From assembly GCF_000711795.1 (NCBI RefSeq), contig NZ_JONH01000001.1:186001-250000 (forward strand): a stretch of DNA of 64,000 nucleotides. The letters run 5' to 3'. The notes beneath the pieces are model-generated. The model did not search any database. It was not told the DNA's origin and saw nothing but the letters and a program-made list of their open reading frames with translations. The DNA comes from Vibrio pacinii DSM 19139 (GTDB lineage: Bacteria; Pseudomonadota; Gammaproteobacteria; Enterobacterales; Vibrionaceae). Shown here in pieces: positions 58,692 through 64,000 of this stretch (the stretch's first letter is position 1; each line of letters begins with the position of its first letter). The position numbers and the translations under genes were made by a program.

Positions 58692-59198
58692 TTATTTATT
58701 TGATTCCCGAATGATTGTCACCTCTACCATTTGATTTGGTTTTCCATTCATGCTGAGTACGTAACTTCCCCATTCATGTGTATTAATGTGGGTTACCCAT
58801 TTATCACTTTGCATTGGGCAATGTAAGTTTTCAATTTTTGACCCCACGATATCTGCGTCTTTCATTGTTAAAGCGACTGATTTACTGTGAAAAATAACCA
58901 GTTTTTCATTCCACTTAGTCACCGCTAACTGTAAAAAAGCGTTTCCATTGTCATCCAGTTTAAATTTGTACCCGACAGGGCTATTCACCACGATTTCACT
59001 TCGCGCTGCTTCATCAGGCGTGGTAGGAGCTTGATTGAGTAAGACGACTGGCTGGTTACAAGCCGCAACATAATCTTGTTTAAAATACTGATTGCGACCA
59101 GAAAGCAAATCTGAGTCGTTGTCTTGCGCATTGATAAACTGAATACCAGCCAACACCAGACTGCAGACCAGTATCAAGTTAATGAATTTAGATCGCAT
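58692..59198 (-). CDS. Exported protein of unknown function
   Basis: A 168-residue protein I do not recognise. A signal peptide of about 24 residues ends at INAQD or nearby. Two Cys residues (in VAACNQP and NLHCPMQ) could form a disulfide. The rest is predicted beta-rich, with alternating hydrophobic residues (AFLQLAVTKWNEKLVIFHSKSVALTM). Its start lies ten bases after the di-heme peroxidase stop, so the two are surely co-transcribed. A periplasmic or secreted accessory of that enzyme is possible, but unproven. Confidence 0.75.
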   Translation of the reverse strand: MRSKFINLILVCSLVLAGIQFINAQDNDSDLLSGRNQYFKQDYVAACNQPVVLLNQAPTTPDEAARSEIVVNSPVGYKFKLDDNGNAFLQLAVTKWNEKLVIFHSKSVALTMKDADIVGSKIENLHCPMQSDKWVTHINTHEWGSYVLSMNGKPNQMVEVTIIRESNK

Positions 59199-59208
59199 AC
59201 CATTACCT

Positions 59209-60336
59209 TTAATCTTTGTTTAAATATATAAATGGAGGAATGCACCCTAGGTTATCCGGCCGATGTTTTAATGGTACAAGCGAACAAAAAGGCGACTGTT
59301 TATTGGCAGGGACGGAAGCATCAGAGACAGACAGTGCGGATAAAAAAGCGATCAGTGCTTCTTTTTCAATTATTGAAATAGAAAAACCAGCAATCTTGGC
59401 ATCTTTATTCGGATGCACTCGCCCATCACCAATATCATTTCCGCTACGAATCACTCTACCACCAGCGGCGTAACTATCAATCACAGCATTCAACGATTGA
59501 AAACTTCCGTCATGCCCCCACGGCCCTGTTTTAACCACATTAATAAGCGAAGGGATACGAAATCGCCCATTGTCAGAACGATCTCCCGATTGCGATTCAA
59601 GACCAACCTCATCAATAGGGTAAGTGATTTGGCCATCACTATTGTTTATTCCATACAGGCCCACATTGACAAATTCCGGCTGCCGCGCCATCGGTTGATT
59701 CATTAAATTACCGCCATGACATTGGCTGCATTTCAAACGTTGACTAAAAAATAGTCTCCGGCCTTGCTGCTGCGCAAACGACAGAGAAGTTTCGTCTCCG
59801 TTCAAATACCGCTGATAAGCTGTATCCGTAGACACTATTTGTTGCACATATTTCGCTAGCGCATCCAAGGCTCTGTCCACGGTGACATTGGGTGAACCAA
59901 ACGCTTGTTCAAACAGAGGCGAGTAAAGGTTACTCGCCTCTGATAGTCGTTGAATCAAAAGTTGCTCGGTCATACCCATTTCTACTGGTTGAGTTGCAAA
60001 TAACGGTTTTCGAATTGACGACTTTAGATCTGTCACTCCCTTTGTGCGTTGAAAGTAAGAGCTGAACCTAGCCGTATTCAATAAGGAAGGCGTGTTCAGA
60101 GTGGTGGTTTGGTCATAAATATCTGGGGTTTTACTAAAGGTATTGCTCCAACCATGGTTGGGATCATGGCACAGTGCACAACTTCGGTTACCTAGCTTGG
60201 AAAGCCTAACATCATTGAACAAGTAGCGTCCGAGCTCAACTTTATCTTTATCGTCATTCCCAGCGTGTACTGTCCAAGAACACCATAGAGAAATAGTGAA
60301 GCAAAAGTATAAGCACAGCCGCTTTATCCTTCTCAT
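59209..60336 (-). CDS. Di-heme cytochrome c peroxidase / MauG family protein
   Basis: A 375-residue periplasmic c-type di-heme protein. Signal peptide ends near VHAGND (about 25). The two heme-binding motifs are C53-A-L-C-H57 and C203-S-Q-C-H207. The family's conserved LNTPSLLNTA, VEMGMTE and TGPWGHDGSF sequences are all present. Relatives either detoxify hydrogen peroxide using electrons from cytochromes, or, like MauG, carry out oxidative protein modification. It follows the LPMO gene by 79 bases on the same strand. Heme attachment requires the Ccm system, encoded elsewhere. Confidence 0.92.
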   Translation of the reverse strand: MRRIKRLCLYFCFTISLWCSWTVHAGNDDKDKVELGRYLFNDVRLSKLGNRSCALCHDPNHGWSNTFSKTPDIYDQTTTLNTPSLLNTARFSSYFQRTKGVTDLKSSIRKPLFATQPVEMGMTEQLLIQRLSEASNLYSPLFEQAFGSPNVTVDRALDALAKYVQQIVSTDTAYQRYLNGDETSLSFAQQQGRRLFFSQRLKCSQCHGGNLMNQPMARQPEFVNVGLYGINNSDGQITYPIDEVGLESQSGDRSDNGRFRIPSLINVVKTGPWGHDGSFQSLNAVIDSYAAGGRVIRSGNDIGDGRVHPNKDAKIAGFSISIIEKEALIAFLSALSVSDASVPANKQSPFCSLVPLKHRPDNLGCIPPFIYLNKD

Positions 60337-60415
60337 GACAACGCGCCACCTACTACTAATAGAACAACCATACTGTTGAAACTGAGGTAGTTATAACTAA
60401 CTACCTCATTATTCG

Positions 60416-61975
60416 CTATTTACTTACTTGCTCCCATTGCTGCGTAACCCAGGCAGGGTCAGCGGCTTGACCAGGTGCAAACACTGAGTTAGAGCAGTTT
60501 GAATACCAAGGGCCAAAACACTGCCAAATGCCTTCCTTACCAAAGTCCACAACCGTACCTTTGGTATAGTTTGCAAGCCCCTGTGGGTAAACATAGTCAA
60601 CGTTATTAGGAACTTCACTATTACCTTGCTCAACAGAGAAGTTGTAAGTGTCTAGTTCAGTGTTGTCATAACTATCTGTAACTTCAACGCTCACACTGTA
60701 ATTATCTTCATCATCGACGAGGAAAAACTTATGCGGTTTTTCTCCTACCACCCCAGTAACAATATCGGGTTGACCGGAATTGTTAGTCATCGAACTCAAC
60801 GTTGCTTTATAGGTATATTCACCATTGTCACCTTCGTCGATTCGAAGATCGATGGGGATTTCGATAGGTTTCCCTGCTAGTGTATAGCTCGCTTGAAGGC
60901 TCGGCCATGAAAACGTAAATTCTTCTTGCTCCCCTCCCACAACTTGAGTCAAGTGAGAGAATTTTTCTGAGACAAAATAGATATTGTTTCTATTTACATC
61001 ATGGGTCAACTCAATGTCTCCATTACTCTCTTTAACACCCACTTCCATATACTCAGAAGCAGTAGCATTGCGATTAATTTCCTCAGCTAATTCAAGTTTC
61101 CACACATCTTCTGACGTATTGTGCGAATCTATTTTGACGGAAGGTTCATAACGCGTGGTTCCCTCATACATAATTCGAGCTATTGCAGTGTCACCGACTT
61201 TCAGATCACCTTTATCGCCAGCAAATCGTTCTTGATGAACCCACTGGTCACCGGGTTCTGGGTCGGGCTTATATCCACCACCATCAACAAATACATCCAT
61301 ACAGCTATAAAATGCTTCACCACTATCCCATACGTTTTGCGGTGGCTTACCTAGTACTTCATGAGGCTTATGGCTTGGGTTAGTTCGCTGCCAAACCTGG
61401 TATACAAGTCGTTTTCCGCGTTTATTATCAGGCCACTTTACTTTGTACTTGTATGTACCACCTACATGCGGGGGCATTTTCCCGCTTTCGTCCAACACTG
61501 CGACACGTTCTAGATCAGCCCAGGTAAGCTCATCAGTATCAGGATTAAATCCATCGCGAGTAACAAATAGGTCAAAATACCAAGTTTTATGCGGCGCCGT
61601 CATATGGTACTCAAACTCTACATATCCATCCTGATCCGGTACCAGCTCTGTCACATGACGTTTAGCACTAGGCACATCAAGAACACTATATTGGCCGCCT
61701 TTTGATGCGGAACAGAGTTGGTGATCCTTGATAACAGCCTTATGGTCACCGTTAGCTGCACCTTGGTTAATCTCATTTTTTTGCTCAGCGACTTTGCTAT
61801 TACAAATATGATTATCATTTGGTGTACTACCTTGATCACAGCTGTACGCACGATCTTGTGGTTTGACCATATAGCCATGTGCAGATGCCATGTTAGGCAT
61901 CATCACCATTGTTGCTGCAAGTGCACTTAAGGCAAATACGGCTGAGCTGGCGGTTCGTTTTCTCTTTAAAGTCAT
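60416..61975 (-). CDS. AA10 lytic polysaccharide monooxygenase, GbpA-like multidomain
   Basis: A secreted copper enzyme of 519 residues that oxidatively cleaves chitin-like polysaccharides. The signal peptide ends at A32, exposing His33 (HGYMVKP), the first copper ligand of the histidine brace. The second ligand is H129 in MTAPHKTW. The AA10 core ends near AFYSCMDVFVDG (about 221-232), with the axial aromatic. A GbpA-type second domain (GDTAIARIMYEG, about 262-350) and third domain follow, then a C-terminal chitin-binding module (about 465-519) with IWQCFGPWYSNC. This is the domain order of V. cholerae GbpA, but the catalytic domain is clearly different, with several extra Cys. ATG 61975 follows TAGGAAAT. 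Confidence 0.92.
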   Translation of the reverse strand: MTLKRKRTASSAVFALSALAATMVMMPNMASAHGYMVKPQDRAYSCDQGSTPNDNHICNSKVAEQKNEINQGAANGDHKAVIKDHQLCSASKGGQYSVLDVPSAKRHVTELVPDQDGYVEFEYHMTAPHKTWYFDLFVTRDGFNPDTDELTWADLERVAVLDESGKMPPHVGGTYKYKVKWPDNKRGKRLVYQVWQRTNPSHKPHEVLGKPPQNVWDSGEAFYSCMDVFVDGGGYKPDPEPGDQWVHQERFAGDKGDLKVGDTAIARIMYEGTTRYEPSVKIDSHNTSEDVWKLELAEEINRNATASEYMEVGVKESNGDIELTHDVNRNNIYFVSEKFSHLTQVVGGEQEEFTFSWPSLQASYTLAGKPIEIPIDLRIDEGDNGEYTYKATLSSMTNNSGQPDIVTGVVGEKPHKFFLVDDEDNYSVSVEVTDSYDNTELDTYNFSVEQGNSEVPNNVDYVYPQGLANYTKGTVVDFGKEGIWQCFGPWYSNCSNSVFAPGQAADPAWVTQQWEQVSK

Positions 61976-62069
61976 CTTTATTTCCTAATTTAGCTATCTT
62001 GTAAAAGGAGTGTTGGGTACAAAGAAAGCCAGTTTGATGCACTGTTGAATTAGTCTGCAGATAAGCTTT

Positions 62070-62657
62070 TTATTTATTAAAGCGAATCATCATGCTACGT
62101 AAAACATTATTTTTTATTATGTAATGATGTTTTAAAGCGGCCAATATATGAACAACAACCAAGATAGCCAACGTCAAACAGGACGCGCGGTGAACAACAA
62201 AGAAAAACTCATTCACAGCAACGTTATCAATTAGATTCGGAATTTCAATTACCCAGAAAAACTGATAGCTATGCTTAAGCATTAAATAGCCGCTAATAAA
62301 AACGACAAACATCGCAAAATACATAACTCCATGAGCCAGTTTTGCAAAACTTTTCTGTGTGTCAGAAATTGTGTTTGGCAGCTCCGGTTCAACCCGGAAA
62401 AATTTCCATACCCAGCGTACAAAAAATAAAATTGTAGCAAGGGTCGCTAGAGATATATTTAGATTAGAGAGTACATGGAATAACACAGGACGATCCATGA
62501 CTAACAGCATCCCATACCCAGCAAAAGTGGCGTACAGAATGATGACGGCCATACTCCAATGAAGCCATTTTGTTAAAGAGCGATGCTGCTCTGTAAGTTC
62601 TGGCGCTTTATCCAAAGAGCTTGGATTAAATAACGCTTTATTGTTTACTTGTAACAT
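62070..62657 (-). CDS. Cytochrome b561 family membrane protein
   Basis: A 195-residue inner-membrane protein with four membrane helices. Candidate heme ligands are His in KWLHWSMA (about 33), HGVMYF (about 109), FVVHRASC and VVHILAALKHHY. This is the CybB-type bacterial b561 arrangement, which moves electrons between quinol and periplasmic or small acceptors. It lies 94 bases upstream of the LPMO gene on the same strand. LPMOs need a reductant, so it could supply electrons through a periplasmic carrier; this is inference. Confidence 0.9.
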   Translation of the reverse strand: MLQVNNKALFNPSSLDKAPELTEQHRSLTKWLHWSMAVIILYATFAGYGMLLVMDRPVLFHVLSNLNISLATLATILFFVRWVWKFFRVEPELPNTISDTQKSFAKLAHGVMYFAMFVVFISGYLMLKHSYQFFWVIEIPNLIDNVAVNEFFFVVHRASCLTLAILVVVHILAALKHHYIIKNNVLRSMMIRFNK

Positions 62658-62804
62658 TTCATTGTCATCTCATAGGAACGATATTGAACTGCTCAAGATT
62701 GTGACGAACAAAGAAAACCATGTGAAGCAAACACTCCATTCAATTGACTTCGCTTGAAATTTATGGTCCTAAATTTTAGTGTTTTTGAAGCCTAACACGC
62801 CATT

Positions 62805-63998
62805 TTAGTTATCTAGCATCTTCTCTAATGCCTCACGCAATGAGTCAGATAAATCTGGATCATTGAGTAACTGTTCCGCAACTTGGTTGTTTTCAAGATG
62901 ATTTTCTGAACCGGACAACAGATATTCAAACAACATTTCTTTAGCGGGCGTAGGTAGGTTTCTCTCTGTGATACGTTCTCGTAACTGGCGTTGGTAGCCA
63001 GACTCGAATGGTTTGACTTCTTCTTTCGCTAGGTGCGCATCGACAATTTCTTTAACTACATTGGGGTTGCTATCTTTGAGGATTAAACTTTTGAGATGAC
63101 TTTCCATTCTCGGATTTTTAGCCAACACTTTTACCGCAGCCATCCTTTCATCAAAATGTTCACTTTGGGTATAGGCGACCACTTCATCGTCCAATCCAGA
63201 GGAATTCAAATTACCTATAGAGACTAGAGTGTCGTACACTGAGTTTCCTGATTTAAGGTTATTCGATAGATAATCAGTGACGTAACTTCGCAAAACCTCC
63301 GAATTATTGCCTAAGATACCAATATTGAGCAGTGCAGTTTGTGCAATCATGCTGTTAGTACTTTGGGCAACGGTTTCAAGTGTATGCAGTGCCTGAATTG
63401 AACTCACTTCACCCATCTTAGCAATCGACATAATCGCGCGAAGTCGGTTCTGTTCGTCTAATGTATGATCCTCAATCAATTGAGATAGGATGTATTCCCC
63501 TTCAGGGCTTTGCGATCGCTCAAGACAAAATATCAATAACGACTGCTGGTCATTGGTTAAGTTTTGGTTAGTCAACAGATCTTTAACGTTATTGAATCCT
63601 TGTTTTGCTAAATACCCACCGATGGCAAAGGCATTATCTAAGTCAGGAGATTGAGCAAAAGTTCCAAATCTAGATTTAAAATTCTCTTCATCGACGTTAT
63701 CTAAATGGCCTGCGATCTCAGAACCTATGCCTTGCCAATGACGATTAACGTCGATAGCATACTGTTGTATATTCCAGTCTAAATGAGACTTTCTCGATAC
63801 GGGTTTCACCTCAATGTGCTGAACTATCGTCAGAATTTGAGTCTCATAATTAACAGTTTTGCTATGAGTGTGAACTAACGATTGAGGGACCCCATTTTGA
63901 TCATGAGTCAATTGCCATTGATCATTTTGGTCAACAACATCGTAGGTATCTGCTGTCGAAACAGACCCTAGCCACTCTCGCTCAATTCTCTCGGCACT
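62805..63998 (-). CDS. HEAT-like repeat protein, 5' part outside window
   Basis: The frame is open to the right edge, so the start lies beyond it; at least 397 residues are visible. The part near the edge is beta-like (TVNYETQILTIVQHIEV). From about the middle on, it is a string of helical pairs typical of HEAT-type repeats, for example LRAIMSIAKMGEVSSIQALHTLE, MIAQTALLNIGILGNNSEVLR in part and MAAVKVLAKNPRMESHLKSL. This order resembles the vitellogenin/lipid-transfer N-terminal module, but I cannot confirm it. It is the most upstream visible member of the co-directional LPMO cluster, 147 bases before the cytochrome b561 gene. Function unknown. Confidence 0.75.
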   Translation of the reverse strand, partial: SAERIEREWLGSVSTADTYDVVDQNDQWQLTHDQNGVPQSLVHTHSKTVNYETQILTIVQHIEVKPVSRKSHLDWNIQQYAIDVNRHWQGIGSEIAGHLDNVDEENFKSRFGTFAQSPDLDNAFAIGGYLAKQGFNNVKDLLTNQNLTNDQQSLLIFCLERSQSPEGEYILSQLIEDHTLDEQNRLRAIMSIAKMGEVSSIQALHTLETVAQSTNSMIAQTALLNIGILGNNSEVLRSYVTDYLSNNLKSGNSVYDTLVSIGNLNSSGLDDEVVAYTQSEHFDERMAAVKVLAKNPRMESHLKSLILKDSNPNVVKEIVDAHLAKEEVKPFESGYQRQLRERITERNLPTPAKEMLFEYLLSGSENHLENNQVAEQLLNDPDLSDSLREALEKMLDN

Positions 63999-64000
63999 TT

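Follow-up and report, generated by a model that had tools for sequence, protein, structure and literature searches.

A di-heme protein and a new family of small exported proteins accompany particular lytic polysaccharide monooxygenases in Vibrio pacinii and other bacteria of its order: a possible copper-supply pair

The subject of this analysis is a group of genes at the end of a 64,000 nucleotide stretch of the Vibrio pacinii DSM 19139 genome (contig NZ_JONH01000001.1, positions 186,001 to 250,000; hereafter the window), where the gene for an AA10 lytic polysaccharide monooxygenase (LPMO) is followed by the genes for a di-heme protein and a small exported protein. Comparison with other genomes identified these three genes as the conserved module, and the small exported protein, to which the preliminary description of this DNA had given no role, as the constant partner of the di-heme protein. 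Our tentative reading, which we regard as a serious possibility, is that of an LPMO with a two-gene maturation and copper pair, in which the small protein would be oxidised at a tryptophan and serve these LPMOs as a copper store or chaperone. The three genes are as follows.

60416..61975, minus strand: AA10 LPMO, 519 amino acids, LPMO_10 and GbpA_2 domains, a member of LPMO clade A (family scan and tree)
59209..60336, minus strand: MbnH/MauG-like di-heme protein, 375 amino acids (CCP_MauG match, TIGR04039 score and tree)
58692..59198, minus strand: small exported protein, 168 amino acids, proposed substrate and copper protein, new family (no curated-family match)

The small protein was found in 3 of 118 genomes of the host genus by a single-sequence search, in 21 of 296 genomes of the family and in 8 of 295 genomes of the order. 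Fifteen of the 52 genomes of one genus (g8, taken as Photobacterium) carried it, and in a class-level sample searched with a profile of eight sequences the single positive among 369 genomes was V. pacinii itself. Species genomes, when scanned, yielded four named loci, in Photobacterium profundum, V. coralliilyticus, P. aphoticum and Vibrio sp. RE88. Twenty-nine loci, one per genome, were then compared, 22 from Vibrionaceae and seven from two other families of the order (f184 and f191). The di-heme gene is immediately upstream of the small gene in all 29, and the two overlap by four bases in 10 of the 22 Vibrionaceae loci; the second, altered small-gene copy of P. aphoticum was used for the overlap comparison and the first copy for the invariant residues given below. 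In the window a ten-base spacer (59199-59208) separates the two genes, as the preliminary description had said. An LPMO gene adjoins the pair in 15 of the 29 loci, in two orientations and from three LPMO clades. It is upstream and co-directional in eight Vibrionaceae loci (the window, L007, L008, L069, L070, L072, L099 and L113) and likewise in L186 from family f191; in six Photobacterium loci (L101, L104, L105, L106, L111 and L112) it directly follows the pair in convergent orientation. LPMO genes, adjacent or elsewhere, are present in 28 of the 29 pair genomes.

A tree of 85 LPMO domains places the LPMOs that accompany the pair in three separate clades, named A, B and C. All seven LPMOs of clade A are linked to the pair (98 by the Shimodaira-Hasegawa-like approximate likelihood ratio test, SH-aLRT). 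Clade B (SH-aLRT 85) holds 13 LPMOs, six linked, one near and six unlinked, and clade C (SH-aLRT 99) holds seven, six of them unlinked and one linked, the linked member being cut by a contig end, 42% filled and on a long branch. Outside the three clades are 57 other rows and the second LPMO of the f184 genome G839. An LPMO placed in A, B or C is present in 27 of the 29 pair genomes. Within Photobacterium, a clade A or B LPMO occurs in 13 of 15 pair-bearing genomes (Fisher 1.7e-10, uncorrected for kinship), the remaining two being G199 and G208 (LPMO unplaced), and none of the 30 LPMOs examined from pair-less Photobacterium falls within either clade. In the sample of the host genus, the three genomes with the small protein are also the ones whose LPMOs (47-49% identity; next best E 4.5e-30) and di-heme proteins (49%; next 37%) come closest to those of the window. 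The link between pair and LPMO lies in the kind of LPMO, not in the mere presence of one, and this link of the pair to particular LPMOs is well supported.

The LPMO trees are quick trees with SH-aLRT values only, and support for clade B is moderate. The pair-less comparison covers Photobacterium and clades A and B; pair-less f184 and f191 genomes were not searched for clade C. The Vibrio rows of the Photobacterium comparison tree are the best 30 loci of the LPMO search, and L142, L144, L146 and L170 (long branch) are in that tree and absent from the 85-domain tree and the residue comparison. Rows L042 and L061 (poor matches on very long branches) and the duplicate L074 were dropped after the first tree. 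In no tree are the broken LPMO of G208, the weaker Photobacterium hits G146:C35, G250:C26, G210:C2, G162:C2 and G180:C2, and the second or third LPMOs of G114, G266 and G295. The G208 gene (L105:8517-9877) is a clade-B-like LPMO beside the pair, split into two open reading frames (ORFs), and the pair itself is intact. Pair and clade-C LPMO share a contig, about 110-145 kb apart, in four of the six f184 genomes (L180, L181, L182 and L185, from G803, G827, G762 and G839).

The window LPMO matches PF03067 (2.6e-37; 129.7 bits against a cut-off of 23) and GbpA_2 (7.1e-10). Its histidine brace had been described as intact, and this was borne out by the alignment, in which both brace columns are His throughout.

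61877..61879, minus strand: codon of His33, His1 of the mature LPMO and part of the histidine brace (column His in 77 of 77 LPMO domains)
61589..61591, minus strand: codon of His129, the second brace His (column His in 77 of 77 LPMO domains)

His33 directly follows the Ala-Ser-Ala end of the signal, so that the PF03067 domain, an N-terminal His after a signal peptide and the second brace His, by which AA10 LPMOs are recognised in sequence, were all found. The closest solved relative is CbpD (7sqx, 2e-34), and the layout of LPMO_10 followed by GbpA_2 is that of the CbpD/GbpA-type AA10 LPMOs; unlike these, the window protein belongs to the separate clade A and, at 136.5 bits, falls under the cut-off of 481 for the GbpA equivalog (PRK13211). 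The host genome, of 4.3 Mb, has a second LPMO on a different contig and, at E<=0.001, nothing else that matches the di-heme protein.

The di-heme protein matches CCP_MauG (4e-35), and its best solved relative is 6e1c, which we take to be MbnH. Three of its sites are as follows.

60166..60180, minus strand: first heme motif, CALCH, residues 53-57 (Cys53, Cys56 and His57 invariant in 29)
59716..59730, minus strand: second heme motif, CSQCH, residues 203-207 (Cys203, Cys206 and His207 invariant in 29)
59470..59472, minus strand: codon of Tyr289, aligned with a Tyr of 6e1c and a Met of the peroxidase 1iqc (invariant in 29)

Trp63, Glu119 and His275 are, with Tyr289 and both CxxCH motifs, invariant across the 29 loci. 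The Met at the position of Tyr289 is presumably the peroxidase ligand, and a Tyr there the heme ligand of MauG. A CCP_MauG domain, two CxxCH motifs and a Tyr replacing the peroxidase Met are together the sequence marks of a MauG/MbnH-like di-heme protein, and a classical bacterial cytochrome c peroxidase was rejected because Tyr289 replaces the Met ligand. The top NCBIfam model is that of the MbnH family, TIGR04039, with 249.6 bits; as this is below the curated cut-off of 362.85, MbnH proper was rejected too. Canonical Vibrio MbnH proteins, used as positive controls, scored 486.7 and 488.5 bits. Among 50 di-heme proteins placed in a tree, those of the 22 Vibrionaceae pairs group as a single clade (SH-aLRT 100), which joins (96) four Vibrio MbnH proteins encoded beside MbnP-like genes; two of these four MbnH/MbnP-like pairs were scanned, and both exceeded both cut-offs. 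The di-heme protein thus looks like an MbnH relative of MauG-like type, and this kinship points to an enzyme that modifies proteins, not to a housekeeping peroxidase. In the four Vibrio loci L012, L013, L014 and L015 a conserved gene of about 380 amino acids, whose product resembles an outer-membrane protein by eye, comes after the MbnP-like and MbnH genes. At L113:2946-5086 a second, distant di-heme gene adjoins the LPMO, scoring 104.9 bits with TIGR03791 and 103.9 bits with TIGR04039, both below cut-off; its end overlaps the next gene, which encodes a 333-aa protein with many membrane spans by eye.

The small exported protein appears to represent a new family and is the most telling member of the unit. 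No family exceeded its curated cut-off in Pfam and NCBIfam scans of the window protein and its relatives, the strongest weak Pfam match among 18 members having an E of 0.002. Identity with MbnP (TIGR04052, cut-off 140) was rejected, since neither the window protein nor the six relatives scanned gave a match, where the canonical MbnP partners used as positive controls scored 281.2 and 286.3 bits. A search of PDB with a profile of the 18 sequences returned no sequence at E<=10; whether the searched copy held the MopE entry 2VOV, which is cited in an excerpt of PMC3912023, was not checked. In an AlphaFold2 model a low-confidence signal helix precedes a beta sandwich (predicted local distance difference test, pLDDT, 83.7 with 8 sequences and 87.4 with 18). 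The nearest solved folds are collagen-binding and PPC-like domains (Z 8.7, root-mean-square deviation 2.8 over 103 residues), barely above the tool's stated background, and MbnP, CorA and MopE are not among the 50 structure matches listed, which excludes nothing.

Identity to the window protein drops to about 30%, which makes the constancy of individual residues telling. Invariant in all 29 are N36, Y43, C47, A64, W96, K99, D116, C127, H137, N139, H141, E142, W143, S145 and Y146, with the following two sites of most interest.

58911..58913, minus strand: codon of the invariant Trp96 (29 of 29)
58770..58790, minus strand: HINTHEW, residues 137-143, with His137, Asn139, His141, Glu142 and Trp143 invariant (29 of 29)

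W96 and W143 are the only Trp residues in 19 of the 29 proteins, and only two Cys occur after residue 20 in 27 of them. Two Trp, two His and two Cys kept in this manner are what might be expected of a Trp-modified copper protein, in which W96, W143, H137 and H141 would be the candidate copper-site residues. In P. aphoticum (L071:6758-12692, with the same stretch in L076) the small gene is present twice, the copies flanking about 4.7 kb of DNA that includes transposase-like ORFs (by eye). The second copy has a different N-terminus and HIYTHEW replacing HINTHEW, and a clade-B LPMO is located about 5 kb beyond it.

Known systems offer a model for how such a pair may work. MbnH and MbnP (TIGR04039 and TIGR04052) are likewise a di-heme enzyme, kin to the present one, adjoining an exported partner with a conserved Trp, and canonical pairs are present in Vibrio itself (L012, L013); MbnH reportedly acts on MbnP. 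Here, unlike in that system, the di-heme protein is below the MbnH cut-off, the partner is not MbnP and the pair is tied to LPMOs. MauG also has two CxxCH motifs and a Tyr where the peroxidase has Met. Its substrate is methylamine dehydrogenase, for which, in contrast, no gene was seen here. In the methanotroph systems SACCP/MopE and CorB/CorA a MauG-like di-heme gene is again found with a partner gene, and, in the excerpts of PMC3621798 and PMC3912023 considered here, copper is bound in MopE and CorA by two His together with a kynurenine derived from Trp, the neighbouring di-heme protein is suspected of making the kynurenine, and a role in copper supply to a copper monooxygenase, the particulate methane monooxygenase (pMMO), is suggested. 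The client here would be an LPMO and not pMMO. Copper is likewise the metal of LPMOs, and azurin activated copper-free CbpD, an AA10 LPMO (excerpt of PMC7902821). Among the papers listed by searches of the open-licence PMC literature, none describes in its title or displayed abstract an LPMO with a MauG/MbnH-type pair.

By likeness to MopE and CorA, we propose that the di-heme enzyme, once exported, would convert W96 or W143 of the small protein to kynurenine or a related oxidation product, and that the modified Trp may form a copper site with His137 and His141. The small protein would then gather or hold copper and either hand it to the histidine brace of the LPMO or keep the LPMO metallated. 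That this amounts to a dedicated copper-loading system for specific LPMO clades, acting through MauG/MbnH-type Trp conversion in a new small-protein family, we consider possible and open to considerable doubt.

There are observations that weigh against such a service to LPMOs. No LPMO is adjacent to the pair in 14 of the 29 loci, among them seven further Photobacterium loci and six of family f184, and one pair genome (G199, in about 490 pieces) shows no LPMO at all. Carriage of any LPMO in Photobacterium does not differ significantly between pair genomes (14 of 15) and the others (26 of 37; Fisher p 0.14), and LPMOs in general therefore manage without the pair. Eight relatives of the di-heme protein are also below the TIGR04039 cut-off (253.7-273.1 bits), and the join between MbnH and the pair clade was flagged as one between long branches. 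Furthermore, according to an excerpt of PMC3912023, a methanotroph mutant that had lost the di-heme partner of a CorA homologue was able to grow, and did so faster than the wild type, so the enzyme may be dispensable in that system. The loci without an adjacent LPMO and the genome without any would suit a system for copper acquisition or sensing in general, which has its regulation or mobility in common with certain LPMOs and serves none of them directly, as would the description of MopE/CorA-type proteins as copper-repressed surface proteins (excerpts of PMC3621798 and PMC3912023). We consider this rather unlikely, as the tie to particular LPMO clades persists where pair and LPMO are unlinked.

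The di-heme protein could instead be a direct redox partner of the LPMO, as electron donor or as a peroxidase tuning H2O2, with the small protein as an accessory. A c-type cytochrome domain from Cellvibrio can reduce bacterial LPMOs (excerpt of PMC8981238), the LPMO is adjacent in 15 of the 29 loci, and one of the invariant residues, Glu119, falls within the part that aligns with peroxidases. Yet the small protein is the constant companion (29 of 29), and neither this nor the MbnH kinship is explained by a redox partnership, which we judge unlikely. The preliminary description had suggested a di-heme peroxidase that removes or uses H2O2 for the LPMO; given Tyr289 where the peroxidase has Met, and the grouping with MbnH, this is not the leading function. 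Modification of the LPMO itself by the di-heme enzyme would fit the gene adjacency, but clades A and B have no aromatic residue (Trp, Tyr, His or other) in common that is rare in the 57 other domains (the positions that are so shared are only Asp, Glu and two Lys), and such a target would leave the small partner's constancy aside; we regard it as very improbable. Most improbable of all is the five-gene redox module that had been put forward from the co-directional gene order in V. pacinii, with cytochrome b561 giving electrons to the LPMO. The five co-directional ORFs do exist on the minus strand, transcribed in the order HEAT-repeat gene, b561, LPMO, di-heme gene and small gene with successive gaps of 147, 94, 79 and 10 bases, but tblastn (E<=1e-3) found no relative of b561 or of the HEAT-repeat protein in the stretches examined at the other 28 loci, those for L069 and L186 excluding the DNA upstream of the LPMO. 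Both were rejected as members of the unit on this ground. Of the proposed set of LPMO partners, what recurs in other genomes is the di-heme and small proteins, with the LPMO itself adjacent to them in the 15 counted above.

The two genes outside the conserved unit are as follows.

62070..62657, minus strand: cytochrome b561, co-directional neighbour (PF01292, 6.4e-23)
62805..64000, minus strand: HEAT-repeat protein, cut by the window end (family scan)

Uncut, the HEAT ORF encodes 590 amino acids (L003:4806-6578). Promoter-like sites numbered 12 against a shuffle mean of 10.6, and terminator-like sites 1 against 3.6 in shuffles, both being uninformative on the transcript. Other neighbours were seen elsewhere. 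A C69-family dipeptidase-like gene is upstream of the pair in the seven Photobacterium loci that lack an adjacent LPMO (L102:5314-6783, L100, L103 and L107-L110); it was set aside as a unit member and taken for a plain neighbour (one of the seven scanned). In family f184 the pair is located behind a GAPDH-PGK-aldolase gene row (one of six scanned), and in Vibrio sp. RE88 (L072:2226-2981) a gene for a membrane protein that looks, by eye, to be of HupE/UreJ type is upstream of the clade-A LPMO.

The unit resembles the known pairs of a di-heme protein and its partner, and what is new is the partner family and the apparent LPMO client. To our knowledge, how secreted LPMOs acquire and retain copper is largely an open question. 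Since the pair goes with particular clades of LPMO across at least three families of bacteria, the question of LPMO copper supply becomes directly testable. If the proposal is true, the small protein would add to MbnP and MopE/CorA a third kind of copper protein with a Trp-derived site, the first of these to be tied to polysaccharide oxidation; it would extend Trp-derived copper sites past those proteins, and could in practice help to maintain LPMO activity.

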